This document shows positions 17,808 to 30,752 of a stretch of 54,266 nucleotides of DNA, one piece after another. The position numbers and the translations under genes were made by a program. The stretch is from Actinomycetota bacterium (lineage in GTDB: Bacteria > Actinomycetota > Acidimicrobiia > Acidimicrobiales > Ilumatobacteraceae): the NCBI GenBank assembly GCA_009701715.1, contig WLJO01000013.1:1-54266 (forward strand). The letters are read 5' to 3'. A model generated the notes under the pieces. It was not told the DNA's origin. It searched no databases and saw only the letters and a list, made by a program, of their open reading frames with translations. Within the stretch, counting starts at the first letter, position 1. Each line of letters opens with the position of its first letter.

Positions 17808-19004
17808 TTACTTGCCGAAGGAGACCGGGCACATGCGCGGTCCGCGCACCTGACCGCCGGCCCAAGTGACTTCTGCGCCCTTGGTAAGGCCGAACTCGGG
17901 GATCATCGCGAGCCATTCCTCGACGGCGACGCGCAGTTCCATGCGAGCGAGGTTGGCGCCTGCGCAGCGGTGGATGCCCGATCCGAACGCGATGTGGCGG
18001 TTCTGCTCACGGTCGAAGTCCACCACGTCGGGATTCGGGAACACGTCCGGGTCCCGGTTGGCGGCAGGGAAGGGGAGCAGCACGTTGTCGCCCTTGTGCA
18101 TCGGACAGCCGTTGTACTCGAAGTCCTCGGTGACGATGCGGGCCATGGTGACCGGCGAGTACGCGCGGAGCAGTTCCTCGAGCGCGAACGGCATGATCTC
18201 GGGGTCGTCGATGAGCCGTTGCCGGTCGGCGGGGTGCGTAGCGAGGTGCCACAGCGCGGAACCGATGGCGCTCCAGGTGGTGTCCACCCCGGCGAGGAGC
18301 GTGAGCGCTGCCGTGCCGAGCACGTGGGCATCGGGAATGGCCTCGCCCTCCACCTTGGTGTGCGCAAGCTCGCTGATGAGATCGTCGCCCGGGTTGACCT
18401 TGCGCTCCTCGAGGGCCTGCATGAAGAAGGTGAAGATATTGATCTGCCCGCGCTGGAGGCGCTCGGGGTCGTAGGCGAACTCGAGCACGTCACGCACCCA
18501 GCTGGTGAAGTCGTCGGACATCTCGGCGGGTACGCCGAGCACCTTGGCGATGATGCGCACTGGGATCTGCTGGGCGTAGTCCTGTGCGGCGTCGGCCTTG
18601 CCATCCTCGATAAAGCCGCGAATGAGGCTGCGGCACAGTTCACGCGTAATGACCTCGTACTCGGCCACCCTGGTGTGGGAGAACCAGGGGAGCAGGAGGC
18701 GACGCGACCAGGTGTGCACCGGCGGGTCGCTCGTGATCGGCGGGAGTCCCAGCGGGAACGGGTCGGGTGCGCCCTCGGGTGCACGGATCACGCCGACCTC
18801 TGCGGAACTGAAGTGCTCGACGTCGTGGGCGATCGCCACCACGTCGTCGTACTTGGTGGGCATCCACGACCCACCCCAGCGATCGGTATGCGCCACCGGG
18901 CAGGTGCCGCGCAGTTCCTCGTACACGGGGTACGGGTCCTTCACGAACTCCGGGTCAACCACGTCGTAGTCGGTGGCCCAGTTCAGATGGCTCGGTGTGG
19001 ACAC
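17808..19004 (-). CDS. Cytochrome P450
   Basis: 398 residues, GTG start at 19004 preceded by GAGGAGGGATCCC as ribosome-binding site. The I-helix oxygen-activation motif is LAGVDTTWSA, the K-helix ExxR is ALEELLRAYSPV, and the haem loop FGSGIHRCAGANLARME has Cys347 as thiolate ligand. No membrane anchor, so it is a soluble bacterial class I P450 that needs a ferredoxin and a reductase. None is adjacent; the small ferredoxin at 36743 is one candidate partner. The substrate is unknown. Confidence 0.93.
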   Translation of the reverse strand: MSTPSHLNWATDYDVVDPEFVKDPYPVYEELRGTCPVAHTDRWGGSWMPTKYDDVVAIAHDVEHFSSAEVGVIRAPEGAPDPFPLGLPPITSDPPVHTWSRRLLLPWFSHTRVAEYEVITRELCRSLIRGFIEDGKADAAQDYAQQIPVRIIAKVLGVPAEMSDDFTSWVRDVLEFAYDPERLQRGQINIFTFFMQALEERKVNPGDDLISELAHTKVEGEAIPDAHVLGTAALTLLAGVDTTWSAIGSALWHLATHPADRQRLIDDPEIMPFALEELLRAYSPVTMARIVTEDFEYNGCPMHKGDNVLLPFPAANRDPDVFPNPDVVDFDREQNRHIAFGSGIHRCAGANLARMELRVAVEEWLAMIPEFGLTKGAEVTWAGGQVRGPRMCPVSFGK

Positions 19005-19150
19005 GGGATCCCTCCTCGGATCCGGCGGACTGGGCCGGACTGCGCAATCCTAGGCAACGGTGTGCCGAACGTCACGAGATTAGTGATGGGTGTCATGGCC
19101 GCCCACACAGTCCCGACACCGTTTCTGGGTGGAGAGTACGGTGGCACCCG

Positions 19151-19297
19151 ATGCCAGCGCCGTCCGATCCGTCGTGCCTTGAGCGTTTGGTCGACACGTT
19201 GTTCAACCCCGCCGCTGAGCAGGTGCCGAAGGTCGATGCGGCACTCGCCGGGATCGTGGGATGCCTCGCCCCGTTTGCTGGATCGGCTAGCAAATGA
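19151..19297 (+). CDS. Small hypothetical protein, possibly translationally coupled
   Basis: 48-codon frame from the ATG at 19151 to a TGA at 19295-19297. It overlaps the ATG of the YbhN-like gene as ATGA, which favours coupled translation. A GGAGAG lies 14 bp upstream. The protein (MPAPSDPSCLERLVDTLF...) has no recognisable motif or membrane helix. It is also in frame with a longer upstream open stretch, so it could be chance. Low confidence. Confidence 0.35.
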   Translation: MPAPSDPSCLERLVDTLFNPAAEQVPKVDAALAGIVGCLAPFAGSASK

Positions 19298-20430
19298 GTG
19301 TGGACGAGACCGTGACACCGAGGCGAACGCGCCGGCGCCACTGGTGGTACGTGCGCGGAAGCCTCAAGGTGATGGCGTCGTTCTTCGTCTTCTGGTTCCT
19401 CATCCTTCCGCTCATCCCGGGCTTCCGGAAGGCGAGCAGCGACCTGCAGAACTCGAACTTCTGGTTCCTCGGCGTGGGCTTTGTCCTCGAGGGCGTCGCC
19501 CTGTTCTGCTACTCGATGCTGACACACGCCGCGCTCGGGGCGCCCTCGCCCAAGCCACTGCGGTTGTTCCGCATCCAGCTGTCGACCCGGGCGGTGTCTT
19601 CACTCATGCCTGGTGGGTCGGCGGCAGGTTCCGCACTCGGCTACCGCTTGCTCACAACCTCGGGGGTTCCGGCAGCAGACGCCGGGTTCGCCCTCGCCAC
19701 CGTGGGCCTCGGGTCTGCCGTGATGCTCAACATCTTGCTGTTCTTCGCGTTGATGGTGTCCATCCCGCTTCGCGGCTTCAACCCCGTCTACGGCTCGGCT
19801 GCGGTGGTCGGGGTCATCCTTCTGGTGTTCTCGGCCGGTGTCGTTGTCGGCCTGCTGCAGGGCCAGACACGCGCCGAGCGGCTCGTGCGCTGGGTCGCAC
19901 GGCGGCTGCGCTTCGACCCGGACCGCGCGGTCGCTGTCATCCGTCACGTGGCCGATCGCATGCGGTACCTCCTGAGGGACCGCCAGCTGTTGGCACGTGT
20001 CGCGGTGTGGGCGGCGCTCAACTGGTTGCTCGACGCGGCGGCCCTCTGGTTCTTCCTGCGCGCGTTCGGCGGTTCCATCGCCGTGGACGGCCTGCTCGTG
20101 GCGTTCTGTCTGGCGAACGTGCTGGCCGTCATCCCGATCACCCCGGGCGGCCTCGGGATAGTCGAGGGTGTCTACATCCCCGCACTCACCGGGTTTGGCC
20201 TGACTCGAAGCCAGTCGTCGCTCGGCGTGCTCGGCTATCGGCTGGCCCAGTACTGGGTGCCGATGCTGATCGGTGGTCTCTGTTACGTCTCGCTGCGAGT
20301 CGGCCCGTGGTCGATGGAGCGCCGGGACCGCCTCGCCCGACTGCGCCAGGTGGCCCATGACTCGATCATGGACACCACCGACTCGCTGGAGTGGGCCGAG
20401 AAATACGCACAGCGCCGTCCGGGCACGTAG
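19294..20430 (+). CDS. YbhN/lysylphosphatidylglycerol-synthase-type integral membrane protein
   Basis: 378 residues with about eight hydrophobic helices. Landmarks of the UPF0104/LPG_synthase_TM family are SSLMPGGSAAGSALGYRLL, then LNWLLDAAALWFFLRAFGG and NVLAVIPITPGGLGIVEG. The soluble aminoacyl-transferase domain of full MprF enzymes is absent, so it is not a complete lysyl-PG synthase. Stand-alone members are membrane proteins linked to lipid or polyprenyl-carrier flipping; a precise role is not assignable. The C-terminal tail is charged and cytoplasmic. Confidence 0.8.
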   Translation: MSVDETVTPRRTRRRHWWYVRGSLKVMASFFVFWFLILPLIPGFRKASSDLQNSNFWFLGVGFVLEGVALFCYSMLTHAALGAPSPKPLRLFRIQLSTRAVSSLMPGGSAAGSALGYRLLTTSGVPAADAGFALATVGLGSAVMLNILLFFALMVSIPLRGFNPVYGSAAVVGVILLVFSAGVVVGLLQGQTRAERLVRWVARRLRFDPDRAVAVIRHVADRMRYLLRDRQLLARVAVWAALNWLLDAAALWFFLRAFGGSIAVDGLLVAFCLANVLAVIPITPGGLGIVEGVYIPALTGFGLTRSQSSLGVLGYRLAQYWVPMLIGGLCYVSLRVGPWSMERRDRLARLRQVAHDSIMDTTDSLEWAEKYAQRRPGT

Positions 20431-20442
20431 CGTTTGGGTCCT

Positions 20443-20958
20443 ATGACCGTCCACGATCGCCCCTTCGGCCGCTGCCTCGAAGACTTCGCAGTTGGTGACA
20501 TCTACCGGCACTGGCCCGGCAAGACCATCACCGAGTACGACGACCACCTCTTCTGCATGATCACCATGAATCATCACCCGTTGCACACCAACGACTGGTT
20601 TGCAGCCAAGAGCGTTCAGGGTCGCAATGTGGTGGTCGGCAACCTCGTGTACTCCCTCACGCTCGGCATGAGTGTCCCCGACGTGAGCGGTGCCGCCATC
20701 GCCAACCTCGAGGTGGAGACGCTGCAGCACAAGTTCCCCACATTCCACGGGGACACCATTCACGCCGAGACCCGTGTCCTCGACGTGCAGGAATCGAAGT
20801 CTCGCAACGACCGCGGTGTCGTCACCGTCGAGACAAAGGCGTTCAACCAGGACGGCAAGGAAGTGTGTTACTTCCGCCGTCGCGTGATGGTGTGGAAGCG
20901 CGAGTTCGCCCCCTCGCGGGAGCGCCCGTATGACGGCCAGGACGTCTGGGCCGGCTGA
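20443..20958 (+). CDS. MaoC-family (hot-dog) hydratase, mesaconyl-CoA hydratase-like
   Basis: 171 residues from the ATG at 20443. LEDFAVGDIYRHWPGKTITE, then HPLHTNDWFAA (hydratase Asp/His region), NLVYSLTLGMSV, NLEVETLQHKFPTFHGDTI and CYFRRRVMVWKRE fit the actinobacterial MaoC dehydratases that are encoded with malyl-CoA lyase and methylsuccinyl-CoA dehydrogenase in ethylmalonyl-CoA gene sets. Mesaconyl-CoA to beta-methylmalyl-CoA hydration would connect the Mcd-like (15536) and lyase (13143) enzymes. The pathway assignment is inference from family plus proximity. Confidence 0.7.
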   Translation: MTVHDRPFGRCLEDFAVGDIYRHWPGKTITEYDDHLFCMITMNHHPLHTNDWFAAKSVQGRNVVVGNLVYSLTLGMSVPDVSGAAIANLEVETLQHKFPTFHGDTIHAETRVLDVQESKSRNDRGVVTVETKAFNQDGKEVCYFRRRVMVWKREFAPSRERPYDGQDVWAG

Positions 20959-21817
20959 TCCCGCGTTGAACATGGCCGACCTCGTCGGCCGTGTGCTGGC
21001 GTGGGGTGTGCCCCGCATGCGGGATCTGCCGTGGCGGCAGTCCCGGGACCCGTGGGGCATCCTCGTCGCAGAGGTGATGGCCCAACAGACGCAGGTGGAC
21101 CGGGTGGTGCAGCGCTGGGACCGGTTCCTCGAGCGCTTCCCCACTCCGGCCGCGTGCGCAGCCGCACCGCTCGGTGACATCCTGCGCGAGTGGCAGGGCC
21201 TCGGGTACCCGAGGCGAGCAAGGCATCTCCACGAGTCAGCGAACCGCGTGGTGGAGCTCGGCGTATTCCCGTCCACGCTTGACGGGCTGCTGAGCCTGCC
21301 CGGGGTCGGTCAGTACACGGCGCGTGCGGTGCTCGCCTTCGCGTTTGAGTCGCCGGCGGCCGTGGTGGACACGAACATCGCACGGGTGCTCGCAAGGACG
21401 GTGGGGGAGCGGCTCACGGCGAAACGTGCGCAGTCGATTGCCGACGAACTCTGCCCGCCCGAGGATTCGTGGGTGTGGAACCAGGTGATCATGGACCTCG
21501 GTGCCGTCCTGTGCAGGCCAGCGCCTCGCTGTGCTGAGTGTCCGATCCAGCAGCAGTGCGTATGGACTGCGTCGGGTCAGCCGGATCCAGACCCTGCGAT
21601 CGGCACGGCCGGCGTCAGTGGCAAGCAGGCGCGTTTCGAGGGATCGGACCGTCAGGCCCGCGGCCGACTGATGGCGAGGCTTGTTGCGGGCCCCCTCTCG
21701 GCTGCCGAGGCTGCGGCCGCGATGCAGGTGGACGCAGAACGCGCCGAGCGACTCGTCTCAGCGCTCGTCGCCGAGGGTCTTGTTGTCGGCAACGGTGAGT
21801 CGCTCCGGCTCCCGTAG
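20930..21817 (+). CDS. mutY: A/G-specific adenine glycosylase MutY
   Basis: 295 residues if the ATG at 20930 (29-bp overlap with the MaoC gene) is used; the ATG at 20972 is an alternative. Catalytic Glu48 is in AEVMAQQTQVDRV, the helix-hairpin-helix LPGVGQYT is at 123-130, Asp147 is in VVDTNIARV, and the 4Fe-4S ligands are Cys195, 201, 204 and 210. The spacing between the first two cysteines is five residues, whereas six is usual. It removes adenine mispaired with 8-oxoguanine. The C-terminal NUDIX-like recognition domain is replaced by a short winged-helix-like tail, as common in actinobacteria. Confidence 0.9.
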   Translation: MTARTSGPADPALNMADLVGRVLAWGVPRMRDLPWRQSRDPWGILVAEVMAQQTQVDRVVQRWDRFLERFPTPAACAAAPLGDILREWQGLGYPRRARHLHESANRVVELGVFPSTLDGLLSLPGVGQYTARAVLAFAFESPAAVVDTNIARVLARTVGERLTAKRAQSIADELCPPEDSWVWNQVIMDLGAVLCRPAPRCAECPIQQQCVWTASGQPDPDPAIGTAGVSGKQARFEGSDRQARGRLMARLVAGPLSAAEAAAAMQVDAERAERLVSALVAEGLVVGNGESLRLP

Positions 21818-21824
21818 GGCCTGC

Positions 21825-22340
21825 TCAGCGGGTGACGGCGCGCAGGATCTCGGCGAAGGCCTCGTCGGCCTTGGCGCGCATCTCGTCGTCGGTGCGGTCC
21901 TGAATGGGATGTGGCACGAACACGCTCGCCGGCGTGAAGCCGAGTGCCGCTGATTGCGCCTCGGCGGCCTGAACGAACTCGGTGGAGGCAATGAACATGC
22001 CGACCACACCGCGGGACTCGAGATCACTGATGTCGTGCACACTGCACGACGTACAACTGCCTCAATCGGCGAGTGCTTCGATAACCACCTGGCACTGGCT
22101 GGCGATCTCGTGGCGGAGGTCCACGGGGGCCGGCTTGGTGAAGGTGGGCTTCTTGAAGCGTTTCACCTTCGCCCCGACCTCGGTGAGACGCTGCTCGAGC
22201 CGGTCGAGGAACACGTCGCCGCGCGCCTTGGAGATGTCGAGCAGACCGACGGTCATGCCGGACAGCGTCGTCGGTCGCTCGAGGAGCGTCCGGTGGGCGA
22301 CGGTGCGCTCACTCGTGGGATCCAAGATGGTCGTGGTCAC
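21825..22340 (-). CDS. UGSC-family selenoprotein (in-frame UGA read as selenocysteine)
   Basis: From the GTG at 22340 (GAGGAG 9 bp upstream) to the stop at 21825, one frame encodes 171 residues if the TGA at 22062-22064 is read as Sec93. The junction reads VVIEALAD-U-GSCTSCSVHD, the motif that names the UGSC family, in which U is selenocysteine or cysteine. Beyond it the protein continues with family-like sequence (IASTEFVQAAEAQSAALGF). An automated caller would split it into a 100-codon and a 71-codon piece. A perfect hairpin starts 11 nt after the UGA. The redox-like U/C-rich site suggests thiol/selenol chemistry, but the reaction is unknown. It lies 39 bp downstream of a thioredoxin-domain protein in the same operon. 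Confidence 0.85.
22032..22050 (-). promoter_or_regulatory. SECIS-like hairpin downstream of the Sec UGA
   Basis: The mRNA strand reads GTCGTGCA-GTG-TGCACGAC, a perfect 8-bp stem with a GUG apical loop (or 7 bp with AGUGU). It begins exactly 11 nt after the UGA. Bacterial SECIS elements lie within the coding region just after the UGA and carry G/GU in a small apical loop. The stem also encodes the conserved SCSVHD, so part of its symmetry could be coding constraint. Confidence 0.7.
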
Positions 22341-22379
22341 GTGCTCATCTCCTCGTGTCGTCAATTCTGTGTCGTCGGT

Positions 22380-24810: not shown

Positions 24811-27063
24811 CTACGACACCTGCTGGAGGGCTTCCCAGACACGCAGGGGTGTGTAGGGCATGTCGAGGTGCTCCACCCCGAGCACTGACAGGGCGTCCAT
24901 CACGGCACTCTGCAGCGCAGGGGTACCCACCACGGTGCCGGACTCGCCGATGCCCTTCACGCCGAGCGGGTTGCACGGCGACGGCGTCTCGGTGCCGTCC
25001 GTGTGGAAGAGCGGCATCTCGCAGGACGACACCAACGCGTAATCAGCGAAGTTTGCGGTCCGCGGAACCCCGTCGTTGCCGTAGTGCATCTCCTCGTAGA
25101 GGGCGGCACCGACCGCGAGTCCGAGGCCCCCGTGCACCTGGCCCTCGGCGATCTGGTGATTGAGGATCGTTCCTGCGTCGTCCACTGTGTGCATCTCGCG
25201 GACCCGGACGCAGCCGGTCTCGGTGTCAAGCTCGATCACCGCGATGCAGGCGCCGAAGGCGAAGGTACCGGGCGACTCGAACCTGTGGGATGCCTCGATC
25301 GCTCCGAGGTCCGCCCAGGCGAGCGACCTCGCCGGTGTGCCGACCACAGCGAACGTGCCGTGCGCCTTGTCGAACTCGATGTCGGCCTCGCTCGCCTCGA
25401 GGAGGTCAGCCGCCACCTGCCTGGCCGCCTCTACCGCAGCACGTGCTGCTCCGTACGCAGACGAGCCGCCGAGCTGGGCGGATCGGGAGCCGATGGTGCC
25501 CCCACCGAAGGGGGCGAGGTCGGTGTCGCTGTGGAGGACGCGAATCCTGTCTCGGTGGATGCCGAGTTCGCTCATGACGATCTCGGCGAAGGTGGTCTCG
25601 TGGCCCTGACCGTGCGGTGACGTGCCGACGATCACGTCCACCGTGCCGTCGTCGTTCACCCTGCACTCGGCGAGCTCCTCACCCCCGCCCGTAATCTCGG
25701 TCGTGCACGCCATGCCGACACCGATCTGGGTGCGGTCGCCCCGGGCGCGGCGGGTCGCCTGCTCCGAGCGGAGTGCGCGATAGCGAGAGCTCTCGACCAC
25801 CTTGTTGATCGCCCGTGCGTACTCGCCACTGTCGTAGGTGGAACCGACGGCGGTCCTGTAGGGGAAGCGGTCCGGGGCAACGACGTTCCTGAGCCGGACA
25901 TCCACGGGGTCGATGCCGAGAGCAAGGGCGAAGCGGTCCATCGCGCGCTCGATGTCGCATGCTGCCTCGGGTCGCCCGGCGCCGCGGAACGCAACGGTGG
26001 GCGTGGTGTTCGTGACGAGGGAAGTACCCGAAACCCGGGCAGCAGGGATGTCGTACACGCCCGTTCCCGAGTTGCGCAGGTTGGAGACCGTGAAGGTTCC
26101 CATTGCCGGGTAGGCACCGCTGTCCTGGAACGCTTCGACGCTGTAGGCAAGCACAGTGCCGTCGCCCGTGCCGCCCAGACGAATGCGGTGGGTGGAGGCT
26201 CGGCCGTGCCCCATGGCGACCATGGCCTCCGTGCGCGACTCGGTCCACCGCAGCGGGCGGCCGATTCGGCGGGAGGCCCAGGCGAGCACGACATCCTCGG
26301 GGTAGCAGCCAAAGCCACTCTTGGAGCCGAATCCTCCCCCGACATCAGGGGCGATCACCCGAACCGTTCCGGGTGCGAGGCCGAGCGATGACTCGATGAT
26401 GTGCTTCGCCCCGGCGGGTCGCTGTGACGTGACCCATGAGATGCACCGTCCGTTGTCGTACCAGGCGACGGCGCCGGCGCGCGGTTCCATCGGTCCGGGG
26501 TTGAGCCTTGGGTGGCGAAGGGAGAACTCGACGATTACGTCGCAGGCCTCGAACGGGTCGTCCTCGAAAGCCGGTGTGGACCACTCCCACGACACGTTGG
26601 TCCCAGCGGCGTCGTGGAGGACCACCGTACTGGCGAGGGCATCGTCGAGGGAGACGACAGCGGGCAGCGATTCGTAGTGGGCGACTACAGCCTCCGCTGC
26701 GTCTGCGGCCAGGTAGGCGGTCTCGGCAACCACGATGGCAAGGGGTTCGCCCACGAAACGGACTGTGTCTGTGGCCAGCATGGGTCGGTACATCTTCTGG
26801 TTCATGAACTGCAGTCGCGGCATGAGCGGCCACAGTTCTGTCCCGCTGTGCGCCCCGGTGAACACAGCGATCACGCCCGGCATCGACACCGCCTCGCTCG
26901 TATCGATGGATGTGATGCGGCCGTGTGGTTCGGTTGAACGGACGAATGCACAGTGGGCGGCACCCGTGAGTGCAGGGTGGTGGAGGCCGGAGATGAACGT
27001 GCCCCGTCCCGTGAGGAATCGGGGGTCCTCCCGCCGGAGAACCGGTTCGTCGCGGGCGCCCAT
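24811..27063 (-). CDS. Molybdopterin-binding large subunit, xanthine dehydrogenase/CO dehydrogenase family (CoxL form II-like)
   Basis: 750 residues from the ATG at 27063. The N-terminus LRREDPRFLTGRGTFISGLH is typical of aldehyde/CO dehydrogenase large subunits. GGGFGSKSGFGCYPED is the molybdopterin-binding GGGFG motif. VAFRGAGRPEA matches form II (AYRGAGR), not the true CO-oxidising form I (AYxCSFR). KGIGESGTV near the C-terminus holds the catalytic Glu. The enzyme normally needs FeS and FAD subunits (S and M), but neither is adjacent here. It is divergent from the 2-oxoacid oxidoreductase; the substrate is unknown. Confidence 0.88.
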   Translation of the reverse strand: MGARDEPVLRREDPRFLTGRGTFISGLHHPALTGAAHCAFVRSTEPHGRITSIDTSEAVSMPGVIAVFTGAHSGTELWPLMPRLQFMNQKMYRPMLATDTVRFVGEPLAIVVAETAYLAADAAEAVVAHYESLPAVVSLDDALASTVVLHDAAGTNVSWEWSTPAFEDDPFEACDVIVEFSLRHPRLNPGPMEPRAGAVAWYDNGRCISWVTSQRPAGAKHIIESSLGLAPGTVRVIAPDVGGGFGSKSGFGCYPEDVVLAWASRRIGRPLRWTESRTEAMVAMGHGRASTHRIRLGGTGDGTVLAYSVEAFQDSGAYPAMGTFTVSNLRNSGTGVYDIPAARVSGTSLVTNTTPTVAFRGAGRPEAACDIERAMDRFALALGIDPVDVRLRNVVAPDRFPYRTAVGSTYDSGEYARAINKVVESSRYRALRSEQATRRARGDRTQIGVGMACTTEITGGGEELAECRVNDDGTVDVIVGTSPHGQGHETTFAEIVMSELGIHRDRIRVLHSDTDLAPFGGGTIGSRSAQLGGSSAYGAARAAVEAARQVAADLLEASEADIEFDKAHGTFAVVGTPARSLAWADLGAIEASHRFESPGTFAFGACIAVIELDTETGCVRVREMHTVDDAGTILNHQIAEGQVHGGLGLAVGAALYEEMHYGNDGVPRTANFADYALVSSCEMPLFHTDGTETPSPCNPLGVKGIGESGTVVGTPALQSAVMDALSVLGVEHLDMPYTPLRVWEALQQVS

Positions 27064-27136
27064 GCCGGCGACGCTAGCCCGCTGTGGTTCTGCGCGCGGT
27101 TGCGCTGATGAGTACGTGCCGGGCGACTGCTCCCCG

Positions 27137-27158
27137 GGTTGACGGACTAGGGTCAACC
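27137..27158. promoter_or_regulatory. Inverted repeat, candidate operator
   Basis: GGTTGAC and GTCAACC form a perfect 7-bp inverted repeat with an 8-bp spacer. It sits in the 167-bp gap between the divergent molybdopterin subunit and 2-oxoacid oxidoreductase genes. The symmetry fits a dimeric regulator site; the regulator is unknown. Confidence 0.4.
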
Positions 27159-27230
27159 GCTGAAGAGGGTCTCGCCCAGATCCGCAGTGTCGGCAGTTCG
27201 CTGGCGGGAACCGGGTGTGAAGGGACGATC

Positions 27231-30200
27231 ATGACTGACGTAGTTCAGAGGCGGGGCGGCCAGCACGCCGGGGACCTCGACGCGAAGTACCGCGAGCCCG
27301 ACGGCAGTTTCTACTTCACTGGGGTACAGGCCCTCGTCCGCGTGCCGATCGACCAGATGCGTGCGGACCGGGACGCGGGTCTGAACACGGCGACCTTCAT
27401 CTCCGGCTATCAGGGCTCGCCGCTCGGCGGTTACGACCGAGAACTTATTGCGCACAAGAAGCTCCTCGAACCGTGGAACTTCGTGCATGTGCCCGGCCTG
27501 AACGAGGAGCTCGGCGCAACCGCGGTGCTCGGCAGCCAGATCTCGGCAACGTTCCCGGGACAGAAATATGACGGTGTCCTCGGCGTCTGGTACGGCAAGG
27601 CGCCGGGTCTCGACCGCTCGGGCGACGCGATCCGCCACGCGCAGTACGGCGGCACCACCCGTCACGGCGGTGTGCTCGCGCTGGTCGGGGACGATCCGGC
27701 CTGCAAGTCGTCCACTCTGCCGTCGTCATCGGAGTGGTCGATGGCGGATCTGCACATCCCCACCCTCCAGCCCGGAAACGTGCAGGAGAGCCTGGACCTC
27801 GGTCTGCACGGCATTGCGATATCCCGACTCGTCGGGCTCTGGACCGGCATGAAGATCGTTTCGGCGGTTGCCGACGGCACGGCAACCATCGAGGTCGGTC
27901 CCGGCCGGTTCGCCCCGGTGCTACCGGAGCTCATCTGGAACGGCAAGCCGTATCGGCCGACCGTCGAGGGCAATGTCGGGCCCTGGACCTCAGGTCCGCT
28001 GGAGAAGGAGATCTTCGAGGCACGGATCCCGCTCGCCGAGATGTATGCGTCGGCCAACAACCTCAACCGGATCACGGTCGACCCACCGCAGGCATGGATC
28101 GGCATTGTTGCATCGGGTCGTTGTTACTACGAGACCCTTGAGGCGCTTCATCTCCTCGGCCTCAGCCGGGCGGACGTCTCCAGATTCGGTATCCGACTCC
28201 TGCAGCTCGGCATGCTCTACCCGTTGGAGCGCGACGTGGTGCGCCGCTTCGCGCAGGGCCTCGAGGAGATCGTCGTCGTCGAGGAGAAGCGCCCGTTCAT
28301 CGAGACGTACCTCCGTGACGCCCTGTACGGCATGACGAACGCGCCGAGGATCTTCGGCAAGCGGGACCACGAGGGTGCCCTGCTCGTGCCCGGCACGGGA
28401 GCCCTCGATGCCGACTACCTCGTCGACCCCCTGCGCCGGCGTCTCGCAGCGCGCCTCGACTCTGCGCAGATGACACCGGCCACTCCGTCCTCGTCGGCCC
28501 TGCAGATCAAGCGCAAGATCGAGGTGCTCCCGAACCGCACGCCGTACTTCTGCTCCGGGTGCCCGCACTCCACGAGCACCAAGGTGCCAGAGGGCTCGCT
28601 GGTCGGCTCCGGAATCGGCTGCCACGGTCTCGTGGTGTTCCTCGCCCCCGAGCGCGTGGGCCAGATCATGGGCGGCACGCAGATGGGTGGCGAGGGCGTC
28701 CAGTGGATTGGGGTTGCCCCGTTCGTCGAGACCGAACACTTCATCCAGAACATCGGGGACGGCACCTTCGCCCACTCGGGCTCGCTCGCCATCCGCCAGG
28801 CAGTCGCCGCGGACGCGAACATGACATTCAAACTGCTCTACAACAGCGCCGTGGCAATGACCGGCGGTCAGGACGCAGCAGGCGCGATGCCCGTCGACCG
28901 TCTCTCGTCGTGGGCGCTGTGCGAAGGCGTCAAGCGGGTCATCATCACCACCGACGAGTTGTCGAGGTACCGGGGCGTCAAACTGTCGTCCGGTGTCGAG
29001 GTGTGGGACCGCTCCCGAATCGTCGAGGCACAGGAAGTACTCGCGAAGCTCCCCGGCGTCACTCTGCTCATCCACGACCAGCAGTGCGCAGCGGAAAAGC
29101 GTCGGGACCGCAAGCGCGGCAACGCCGTAGATCCGGCACGCCGGGTTGTCATCAACCAGCGCGTGTGCGAGGGATGTGGAGACTGCGGCGTGAAGTCGAA
29201 CTGTCTCTCCGTTCAGCCCTTGGATACCGAGTTCGGGCGCAAGACGGCAATTCACCAGTCGTCCTGCAACAAGGACTATTCCTGCCTCGAGGGTGATTGC
29301 CCCTCGTTCCTCACCGTGGTGCCCAAGAAATCCTCCGCGAGGTCGAAAAAAGCGACACGGGCCGAGGGCGGGGCCCGCCGTCGCCCGACGTTCGACCTGT
29401 CGCTGCTCCCTGAGCCGACACCGATCGTGCCCACAGACAACGTCACACTCCGGATGCCCGGGGTAGGCGGTACGGGCGTGGTCACTGTTGCCCAGATCGT
29501 CGGCACGGCCGCAACCCTCGATGGCAAGCACGTCGGTGGCCTCGACCAGACCGGTCTCTCGCAGAAGGCCGGGCCGGTGGTTTCCGACGTGCACATCTCC
29601 TCCACGCCCATCGAGGGAACGAACAAGATCACTGCGGGTGGGGCGGATCTCTACCTCGTGTTCGACCTCCTCGTCGGTCTCTCGCCGGGCAACCTGGTTG
29701 GGGTGTCACCTGCCCGGACGGTTGCGGTGGTCTCCACCTCGAAGAGCCCCACCGGGCTCATGGTGCGGGATGCGAGCGCGGTGTACCCGAATCTCGCGGA
29801 CCTGCAGTCCGACATGAACCAGGCGACGCGTGCGGCGGACAACCGTTTCCTCGACACGATCGCCGTCACCGAGGCACTCTTTGGGGAGTCGACAACGGCG
29901 AACATCTTCCAGCTCGGTATTGCGTACCAGTTGGGGGCACTGCCCGTATCTGCTGGGGCGATCGAATCGGCAATCGAGCTAAACGGTGCAGCGGTCGAGG
30001 CCAACAAGCTTGCGTTCCGCTGGGGGCGGCTCTGGGCCGTCGATCCGGCGAGGGTCCGCGAGCACTCGGTGTTCGCGGAGGACTACCTCCCCAAGCCCAC
30101 GCAGCGCATCGAGGAAGCGATTGTCTCCATGGGTCTCGGCGACGGGGAACTGGGTCGGATCGTTCGCCTGCGCGCAGGGGATCTCGTCGTCTACCAGAAC

Positions 30201-30752
30201 GAGAAGTACGCAGGCTCCTATCTCGATGTGGTGAAGCAGGCCGCCGGTACGGGCAGCATTGCCTTCGCCGAGGCCGTTGCTCGCGGTCTCTACCGGCTGA
30301 TGGCGTACAAGGACGAGTACGAGGTTGCCCGGCTCCATCTGGAGGAGGGGGCCCGCGCCGAGGTGGAGAATGCCGTCGGCGCGAACGTCAAGGTGTACTT
30401 CAACTTCCATCCGCCGCTCCTGCGCAGCCTCGGTATGAAGAACAAGATTGCGCTGGGTCCGTGGGCCCGCCCGATCCTCGGCATGCTGCGCGCAGGGCGC
30501 GGCCTGCGGGGCACGTGGGCCGATCCCTTCGGCAAGGCCGAGGTCCGTCGGGTGGAGCGTGGGCTCATCAACGAGTACGTGTCACTGATCGGGCAGGTAT
30601 CTACCCGGGTCAACGACGGCACGGTGGCGGCAGCGGTGGAGCTGGCTGGTCTGCCGGAACTCGTCGGTGGGTATGAGCAGATCAAACTGCGCACGGTGGA
30701 GCACTACCGCTCAGAGCTCGCCCGCCTCCGTAGCAACCTCGGGCTCGTGTAG
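27231..30752 (+). CDS. Fused indolepyruvate/2-oxoacid:ferredoxin oxidoreductase (IorA-IorB type)
   Basis: 1173 residues from the ATG at 27231, preceded by AAGGGA. The N-terminal pyrimidine domain has ISGYQGSPLGGYD. The thiamine-diphosphate region is at about 435 (YFCSGCPHSTSTKVPEG, then GIGCHGL). A cysteine-rich Fe-S region at about 645-690 contains CEGCGDCGVKSNC and SCNKDYSCLEGDC. The gamma-type domain starts at about 740 (RMPGVGGTGVVTVAQI). The enzyme decarboxylates aryl- or branched-chain 2-oxoacids to acyl-CoA, reducing ferredoxin. The single-chain fusion is common in aerobic bacteria. An upstream in-frame extension to 27084 crosses the promoter region and is rejected. Confidence 0.9.
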   Translation: MTDVVQRRGGQHAGDLDAKYREPDGSFYFTGVQALVRVPIDQMRADRDAGLNTATFISGYQGSPLGGYDRELIAHKKLLEPWNFVHVPGLNEELGATAVLGSQISATFPGQKYDGVLGVWYGKAPGLDRSGDAIRHAQYGGTTRHGGVLALVGDDPACKSSTLPSSSEWSMADLHIPTLQPGNVQESLDLGLHGIAISRLVGLWTGMKIVSAVADGTATIEVGPGRFAPVLPELIWNGKPYRPTVEGNVGPWTSGPLEKEIFEARIPLAEMYASANNLNRITVDPPQAWIGIVASGRCYYETLEALHLLGLSRADVSRFGIRLLQLGMLYPLERDVVRRFAQGLEEIVVVEEKRPFIETYLRDALYGMTNAPRIFGKRDHEGALLVPGTGALDADYLVDPLRRRLAARLDSAQMTPATPSSSALQIKRKIEVLPNRTPYFCSGCPHSTSTKVPEGSLVGSGIGCHGLVVFLAPERVGQIMGGTQMGGEGVQWIGVAPFVETEHFIQNIGDGTFAHSGSLAIRQAVAADANMTFKLLYNSAVAMTGGQDAAGAMPVDRLSSWALCEGVKRVIITTDELSRYRGVKLSSGVEVWDRSRIVEAQEVLAKLPGVTLLIHDQQCAAEKRRDRKRGNAVDPARRVVINQRVCEGCGDCGVKSNCLSVQPLDTEFGRKTAIHQSSCNKDYSCLEGDCPSFLTVVPKKSSARSKKATRAEGGARRRPTFDLSLLPEPTPIVPTDNVTLRMPGVGGTGVVTVAQIVGTAATLDGKHVGGLDQTGLSQKAGPVVSDVHISSTPIEGTNKITAGGADLYLVFDLLVGLSPGNLVGVSPARTVAVVSTSKSPTGLMVRDASAVYPNLADLQSDMNQATRAADNRFLDTIAVTEALFGESTTANIFQLGIAYQLGALPVSAGAIESAIELNGAAVEANKLAFRWGRLWAVDPARVREHSVFAEDYLPKPTQRIEEAIVSMGLGDGELGRIVRLRAGDLVVYQNEKYAGSYLDVVKQAAGTGSIAFAEAVARGLYRLMAYKDEYEVARLHLEEGARAEVENAVGANVKVYFNFHPPLLRSLGMKNKIALGPWARPILGMLRAGRGLRGTWADPFGKAEVRRVERGLINEYVSLIGQVSTRVNDGTVAAAVELAGLPELVGGYEQIKLRTVEHYRSELARLRSNLGLV

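Follow-up and report, generated by a model that had tools for sequence, protein, structure and literature searches.

The 171-residue gene on the minus strand of the window, the 54,266-nucleotide stretch of an Ilumatobacteraceae genome analysed here, very likely encodes a UGSC-family selenoprotein that forms a two-gene redox module with the gene upstream of it, and the selenoprotein part of this reading is close to certain. The features on which we draw are collected in Table 1. The first-pass annotation had joined two apparent short genes into one frame through a TGA codon, and the coordinates, the position of selenocysteine (U93) and the end of that frame were all verified. The motif around U93 is U-GSCTSCSVHD as described, and the product matched both family models above their cut-offs: NF041046 over residues 28-169 (156.7 bits, cut-off 125; 3.9e-46) and PF24696 over residues 4-170 (142.8 bits, cut-off 25; 1.5e-41). 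Both alignments run past the TGA, confirming that the C-terminal half is family-like, so that the family match spans both flanks of the codon and the whole is a single UGSC-family frame. The ribosome-binding site claimed for its start is also present. A gene finder taking the TGA as a stop would split this gene.

Table 1. Features of the UGSC gene, its partner and the selenocysteine machinery (unprefixed coordinates are those of the window; G000 is the window's own assembly and C34 one of its contigs)
Feature	Location	Strand	Details
UGSC-family selenoprotein gene	21825..22340	minus	GTG start, 171 residues, Sec at 93, stop TGA 21825-21827
In-frame TGA, codon of U93	22062..22064	minus	from codon comparison; in the model between strand 3 and the next helix
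Ribosome-binding site AGGAG	22349..22353	minus	spacer of 8 nt to the GTG start codon (22340); from sequence
SECIS-type hairpin GUCGUGCA-GUG-UGCACGAC	22032..22050	minus	8 bp, loop GUG, starts 11 nt after the UGA
Partner gene, 490 aa	22380..23852	minus	thioredoxin-like domain (CATC) and uncharacterised domain (WTDGLPVVPPT...); 39 nt separate its end from the start of the UGSC gene downstream
selA	G000 C34:95194-96225		profile score above curated cut-off
selB	G000 C34:96303-97388		adjoins selA; profile score above curated cut-off
selD	G000 C34:18945-19889		profile score above curated cut-off; own in-frame TGA in GUACK

We compared the U93 codon across 80 loci from named genomes (the best 80 of 394 relatives), 30 loci of related genomes and the window, and all 111 sequences carried TGA. 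Dropping L047, a duplicate of the window itself, left 110 sequences (the window and 109 others), which represent 95 distinct gene stretches because some genes entered via both collections; two of the carriers, G014 and G021, are single-contig genomes. A family-model search of 61 genomes gave 62 UGSC matches, 57 with one in-frame TGA and five without, the latter comprising two Cys versions (L175, L190) and three fragments that, judged by profile position, end short of the codon. In a sample of the phylum, 37 of 396 genomes had a UGSC match; 44 of the 56 listed matches held one TGA, and the 12 without it were seven TGC or TGT versions (L221-L226 and again L190), one with Ala (L227), two fragments outside the codon and two weak partial matches of 19-23 bits (20 of the 56 matches, chosen by place, were fetched as loci). 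Homologues were expected to carry Cys at this position, and among the nine TGA-free homologues that were read, eight did (TGC or TGT; L175, L190, L221-L226), with L227 the exception. Sec and Cys thus exchange at the U/C-G-S-C motif. Record titles among the best 80 of 394 relatives were for many Ilumatobacter, Ilumatobacteraceae, Acidimicrobiia or just Actinomycetota, and a few named other groups, Deltaproteobacteria (L116, L118) and Acidobacteria (L124).

The existence of Cys homologues and the draft state of the window's assembly would be compatible with a Cys-type gene in which the TGA arose through a sequencing error or by decay to a pseudogene, yet we regard this as extremely improbable, since the codon is TGA in so many independent assemblies, which serve here in place of reads and include the two single-contig genomes, the frame beyond it is intact and the hairpin behind it is frozen at synonymous sites. 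Recoding of UGA to another amino acid by an altered genetic code, for which we found no evidence, is scarcely credible, given that both genes of the module terminate in TGA, that selA, selB and selD are present and that Cys stands in eight of the nine TGA-free homologues.

Two UGSC observations stand apart from these counts. L227 (G400:C80) reads DAGSC, with Ala replacing Sec or Cys and a partner gene adjacent, and is possibly an inactive or repurposed copy. Genome G047 (L173-L179 and others) holds ten UGSC matches, nine with TGA and eight with an adjoining partner match, so that a single selenoprotein family is unusually expanded there.

The 8-bp hairpin with a G-containing loop reported 11 nt past the UGA was found at that place; E. 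coli fdhF is the reference for such SECIS spacing. Among 5000 random synonymous recodings of the gene with the protein kept fixed, the 8-bp hairpin was reproduced exactly in 62 and an equally stable fold arose in 185; as a single sequence, the hairpin is only moderately above chance once the protein is fixed. The comparative evidence makes it convincing as a real SECIS-type RNA signal, and the support sought for it across homologues was found in both frozen synonymous sites and compensatory changes. Among 93 unique stretches, synonymous entropy averaged 0.068 bits over the seven hairpin codons and 1.12 bits over a set of 32 conserved codons elsewhere in the gene (p=2.6e-5), and the Cys codon immediately ahead of the hairpin was free to vary (63 TGC, 30 TGT). 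All eight pairs form in 108 of 110 Sec orthologues, versus one to five pairs in the eight Cys homologues (the window duplicate L047 was left out of the entropy and pairing counts, and the Ala-bearing L227 out of the pairing table).

Covariation was scored on an alignment of 55 Sec rows, paralogues included, in which sequences sharing their first 36 bases are represented by a single row. Pairing was kept in 88.6% of cells, the covariation score was 0.200 versus 0.101 +/- 0.013 in shuffled alignments, and 21 cells showed a double change versus 4.4 in shuffles, neither value being reached in any of 500 shuffles. One stem pair shows a C-G to G-C exchange in eight rows, and in all of these Trp replaces the motif's second Cys, so the stem pair is preserved despite the change in the protein; six of these rows keep 6-8 of the eight pairs, and L192 and one copy of L238 keep five. 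At another stem pair, A-U replaces G-C in four rows (L050, L132, L179, L237). Other measures on the same 55 rows were less distinctive: four stem pairs had a double change, a count reached by 75 of 500 shuffles, the count of further pair types was reached by 18 of 500, a register slide of +2 still scored 0.167 and one of -3 had equally many double-change cells (21), and RNAalifold predicted no consensus pair on this alignment.

Of the 18 Sec paralogues, 4 keep all eight pairs in the window's register, as do 10 of the 15 Sec sequences from the phylum sample; some Sec paralogues keep four or five pairs, no better than the Cys homologues. By a rule allowing any register (the bSECIS rule), a strong hairpin was missing in 7 of the 18 paralogues and 2 of the 15 phylum sequences, and present in 2 of the 8 Cys homologues. 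Because pairing is kept in orthologues and partly lost in paralogues, the signal is firm in the window's subgroup and looser in distant paralogues. This loose pairing and the recoding counts would fit a hairpin that arises only from conservation of the protein motif TSCSVHD and carries no RNA signal; we consider that very unlikely, as synonymous sites are near-invariant inside the hairpin only, the C-G to G-C change is compensatory through a Cys-to-Trp replacement and Cys homologues pair so poorly. Two Cys-type UGSC genes, L225 and L226, retain a stem of six or seven base pairs close to where the SECIS would lie, and may have lost Sec only recently.

The window's assembly is a draft of 2.8 Mb in 96 contigs (97.35% complete). 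The first-pass annotation had seen no selA, selB, selC or selD gene in the window, and this agrees with profile searches of the window's own genome, which list no selA, selB or selD match on the window (contig C5), and with Rfam, whose models gave no match in the window at their gathering thresholds. Its call to look elsewhere in the genome was answered in part: selA, selB and selD are present above their cut-offs, though tRNA-Sec was not found in the draft. The best RF01852 match, at 41.7 bits, was rejected as tRNA-Sec since ARAGORN reads it as tRNA-Cys. ARAGORN called tRNA-SeC (anticodon tca) in G001 and G002, both of the same genus as the window's genome, and in G003, and candidate tRNA-Sec matches of at least 58 bits were listed in 43 of 61 genomes, including both same-genus genomes. 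The 1200-base tRNA-Sec locus of G001 is present in G001, is represented by its tRNA part only in G002 and G003, and gave no match in the window's assembly. An assembly gap would be the simplest reading of the missing tRNA-Sec.

Across the 61 genomes, 38 had both UGSC and SelA, two UGSC only, four SelA only and 17 neither (Fisher p=1.6e-9, uncorrected for relatedness; fragmentary matches were dropped beforehand, namely a UGSC one of 36 residues in G053 and those to SelA in G046 and G056). The two UGSC-only genomes, G008 and G037, are 90% and 84% complete. The UGSC pair is close to a tRNA-Sec match and to selA in G009 and G026, with all of them in a span of about 5 kb on one contig; in G036, the pair, a tRNA-Sec match and only a SelA fragment lie within 7 kb of one contig. 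The selD gene of the window's genome (L018, 1501-2445) also encodes a selenoprotein, and a strong hairpin, though with the loop CCA, is predicted right after its TGA. A search for GRDB-type proteins gave none in this genome, and among the families looked for UGSC and SelD are therefore the sole selenoproteins seen there so far.

The first-pass annotation overlooked the upstream partner gene, as well as a possible link to the GrdB/PrdB superfamily. The first 100 residues of the partner are thioredoxin-like and contain CATC; they match TIGR01068 over residues 28-100 at 3.2e-4, with 20.8 bits and thus under the equivalog cut-off of 96.8. Its second domain gave no convincing Pfam or NCBIfam match in the 26 members examined, and it contains 18 invariant residues. 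A relative of the partner was detected in 91 of 100 loci, namely 72 of the 80 close UGSC loci (the best 80 of 394) and 19 of 20 paralogue loci. In the 61 genomes, the partner adjoins 58 of 62 UGSC matches, with about 1.2 kb between match ends in two pairs and at most 329 bases in the rest; the four UGSC matches without it are two near a contig start and two fragments. Conversely, we detected 62 partner matches in 42 genomes, four of them without a nearby UGSC match, and among the 20 phylum-sample loci that were read, 19 have the partner next to UGSC. This association indicates that UGSC and its partner very probably work together.

In five loci (L175, L183, L186, L189, L191) the two genes share one frame, and the partner is therefore probably the domain Unknown_1 that a 2008 paper described as fused to UGSC (PMC2398784). 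CxTC is present in all 63 partner orthologues, of 72 in total, whose N-terminal part is available. Of the 19 partners of paralogues, 13 have under 70 residues ahead of the conserved domain, which leaves no room for a thioredoxin domain, and a strict thioredoxin motif expression matched 0 of 19 (the same expression missed 11 of 63 orthologues); these partners seem to be without the thioredoxin-like domain. Neighbours of the paralogue pairs include AMP-binding enzymes, thiolase, aldehyde dehydrogenase with aminotransferase, ABC transporter parts and regulators, among others. For some of the loci these neighbours hint at a catabolic context, and the 20 neighbours showed no common Pfam theme that would indicate one substrate.

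GRDB-type proteins were detected in 15 of the 61 genomes. The related genomes contain GRDB/PrdB-like selenoprotein genes (L195-L198, L200-L217), several of which extend into a longer C-terminal part. A TGA falls in the U-P-x-C motif in 22 of 25 GRDB-type loci, and a hairpin is predicted at a similar place in 14 of these 22. Comparison by hhalign placed the UGSC profile on the GRDB-type profile with probability 71 and E 3.6e-5, Sec on Sec; with other settings the score was 27.1 and the probability 43, versus scores of at most 7.3 for 60 column shuffles, 6.6 for the reversed profile and 2.4 for the partner. The GRDB model PF07355 gave no match to the UGSC product at E up to 1. Both families, GRDB (PF07355; PrdB) and UGSC, have Sec-x-x-Cys behind a hydrophobic, strand-like run, and the Glu 15 and Gly 18 residues past Sec that are invariant in the GRDB-type set have UGSC counterparts, the Gly nearly invariant and the Glu constant in close orthologues. 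The two differ in that the local alignment spans only about 80 columns around and behind Sec, and in that the UGSC hosts are Acidimicrobiia that are probably aerobic. From these profile comparisons, UGSC may be distantly related to the Sec domain of the glycine/proline reductase B family.

The structure model of the UGSC protein (pLDDT 95) consists of five alternating strand-helix units, with Sec just ahead of the helix that follows strand 3. The order of the thioredoxin fold is beta-alpha-beta-alpha-beta-beta-alpha. The alternating model therefore disagrees with the thioredoxin-like fold once suggested for UGSC (PMC2398784), and thioredoxin is also absent among the 50 VIA rows for the model, which alone excludes nothing. 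The top structural score was to chain H of 8s7v (Z 12.6, rmsd 2.9, 129 aligned), a methyl-coenzyme M reductase activation complex (PMC12176620); chain H is 12% identical to UGSC, and the following rows (Z 10.8, 10.7) are other Rossmann-like proteins. With a model of the UGSC-partner fusion, of moderate confidence (pLDDT 82.5) and with fold searches that cover mainly the UGSC half, a de novo design outranks this chain (Z 11.7 vs 11.3), so the likeness may merely reflect a common fold. Foldseek with the UGSC model returned ten matches at E <= 0.001, which we set aside as weak and to unrelated Rossmann- or flavodoxin-like proteins. Sequence searches against solved structures gave nothing significant, with best E values of 0.044 for the UGSC profile and 0.34 for the partner profile.

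We suggest that SelB carrying Sec-tRNA-Sec would bind the hairpin past the UGA and direct selenocysteine into position 93, creating a putative redox pair, Sec93-x-x-Cys96. UGSC would then be the selenol subunit of a module with its partner, the two being associated in genomes and presumably also in a physical complex. The uncharacterised domain of the partner may hold the substrate, which Sec93, at a helix N-terminus, would attack reductively, as proposed for the GrdB/PrdB relatives; PrdA/PrdB chemistry is the background for this step. Cys96 could resolve the intermediate as a selenenylsulfide, and this would be re-reduced by the CATC thioredoxin-like domain of the partner or, where that domain is missing, by a separate thioredoxin. 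A two-component selenol reductase with GrdB/PrdB-like chemistry is our tentative proposal for the module.

Alternatively, the module could be a general thiol-disulfide or peroxide-reducing system, in which a reactive Sec is served by a thioredoxin-like donor and the chemistry is not of the GrdB/PrdB type. A UxxC motif with a fused CxxC domain is a usual layout in thiol redox systems, Cys versions of UGSC exist and CxTC is retained in every partner orthologue that could be read. We hold this alternative to be somewhat less likely than not, on indirect grounds, as it does not fit readily with the distant profile relation of UGSC to GRDB-type proteins or with a large conserved partner domain that is no known redox domain, and the ten UGSC matches in G047 may suit varied substrates better. 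Following the reductive proposal, UGSC and its partner might constitute an undescribed class of two-component selenoenzyme, with a GRDB-related selenol subunit, an uncharacterised domain for the substrate and, in its main subgroup, an integral thioredoxin-like electron donor, duplicated in genomes, probably for different substrates, and hosted by likely aerobic Acidimicrobiia; we put this forward as a possibility.

The gene itself belongs to an already known family, the UGSC-containing selenoproteins (PMC2398784; PMC5029168, PMC9402790, PMC9312934, PMC13188914), with which (NF041046, PF24696; PMC2398784) it shares the motif, length, TGA and Cys homologues. UGSC is among the commonest environmental selenoproteins, with 255 sequences in one survey (PMC2398784) and 8.2% of selenoprotein genes in another (PMC9402790), and UGSC-motif selenoproteins have been noted in genomes with unusual tRNA-Sec, one of them Blastococcus (PMC5330540). 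According to a 2026 review, computationally found families of this sort are largely uncharacterised in function (PMC13188914). We found no report of a regular pairing with a separate partner, thioredoxin-fused in the main subgroup, in the open-access literature consulted, including passages of PMC2398784, and a subject search of the open-access literature for selenoproteins in Acidimicrobiia or Ilumatobacter gave no on-subject title. Specialists may find use in the pairing with the partner, the covariation of the RNA and the possible link to GRDB, and the near-constant partner, the natural fusions and the possible kinship with selenoenzymes of known biochemistry make the function of UGSC testable.

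Elsewhere in the window, two long open frames (17970-20360 and 19600-21276) gave no Pfam match at E up to 1, and at least one of them is probably spurious because they overlap on opposite strands. A gene for a CoxL-like molybdenum hydroxylase large subunit (24811-27156) lies near the UGSC module and is probably outside it, since it is clustered with the module at only two other loci by crude gene calls. We also detected a 1222-residue protein (27084-30752) with a POR domain and DUF6537, a layout that we take to be that of indolepyruvate ferredoxin oxidoreductase.
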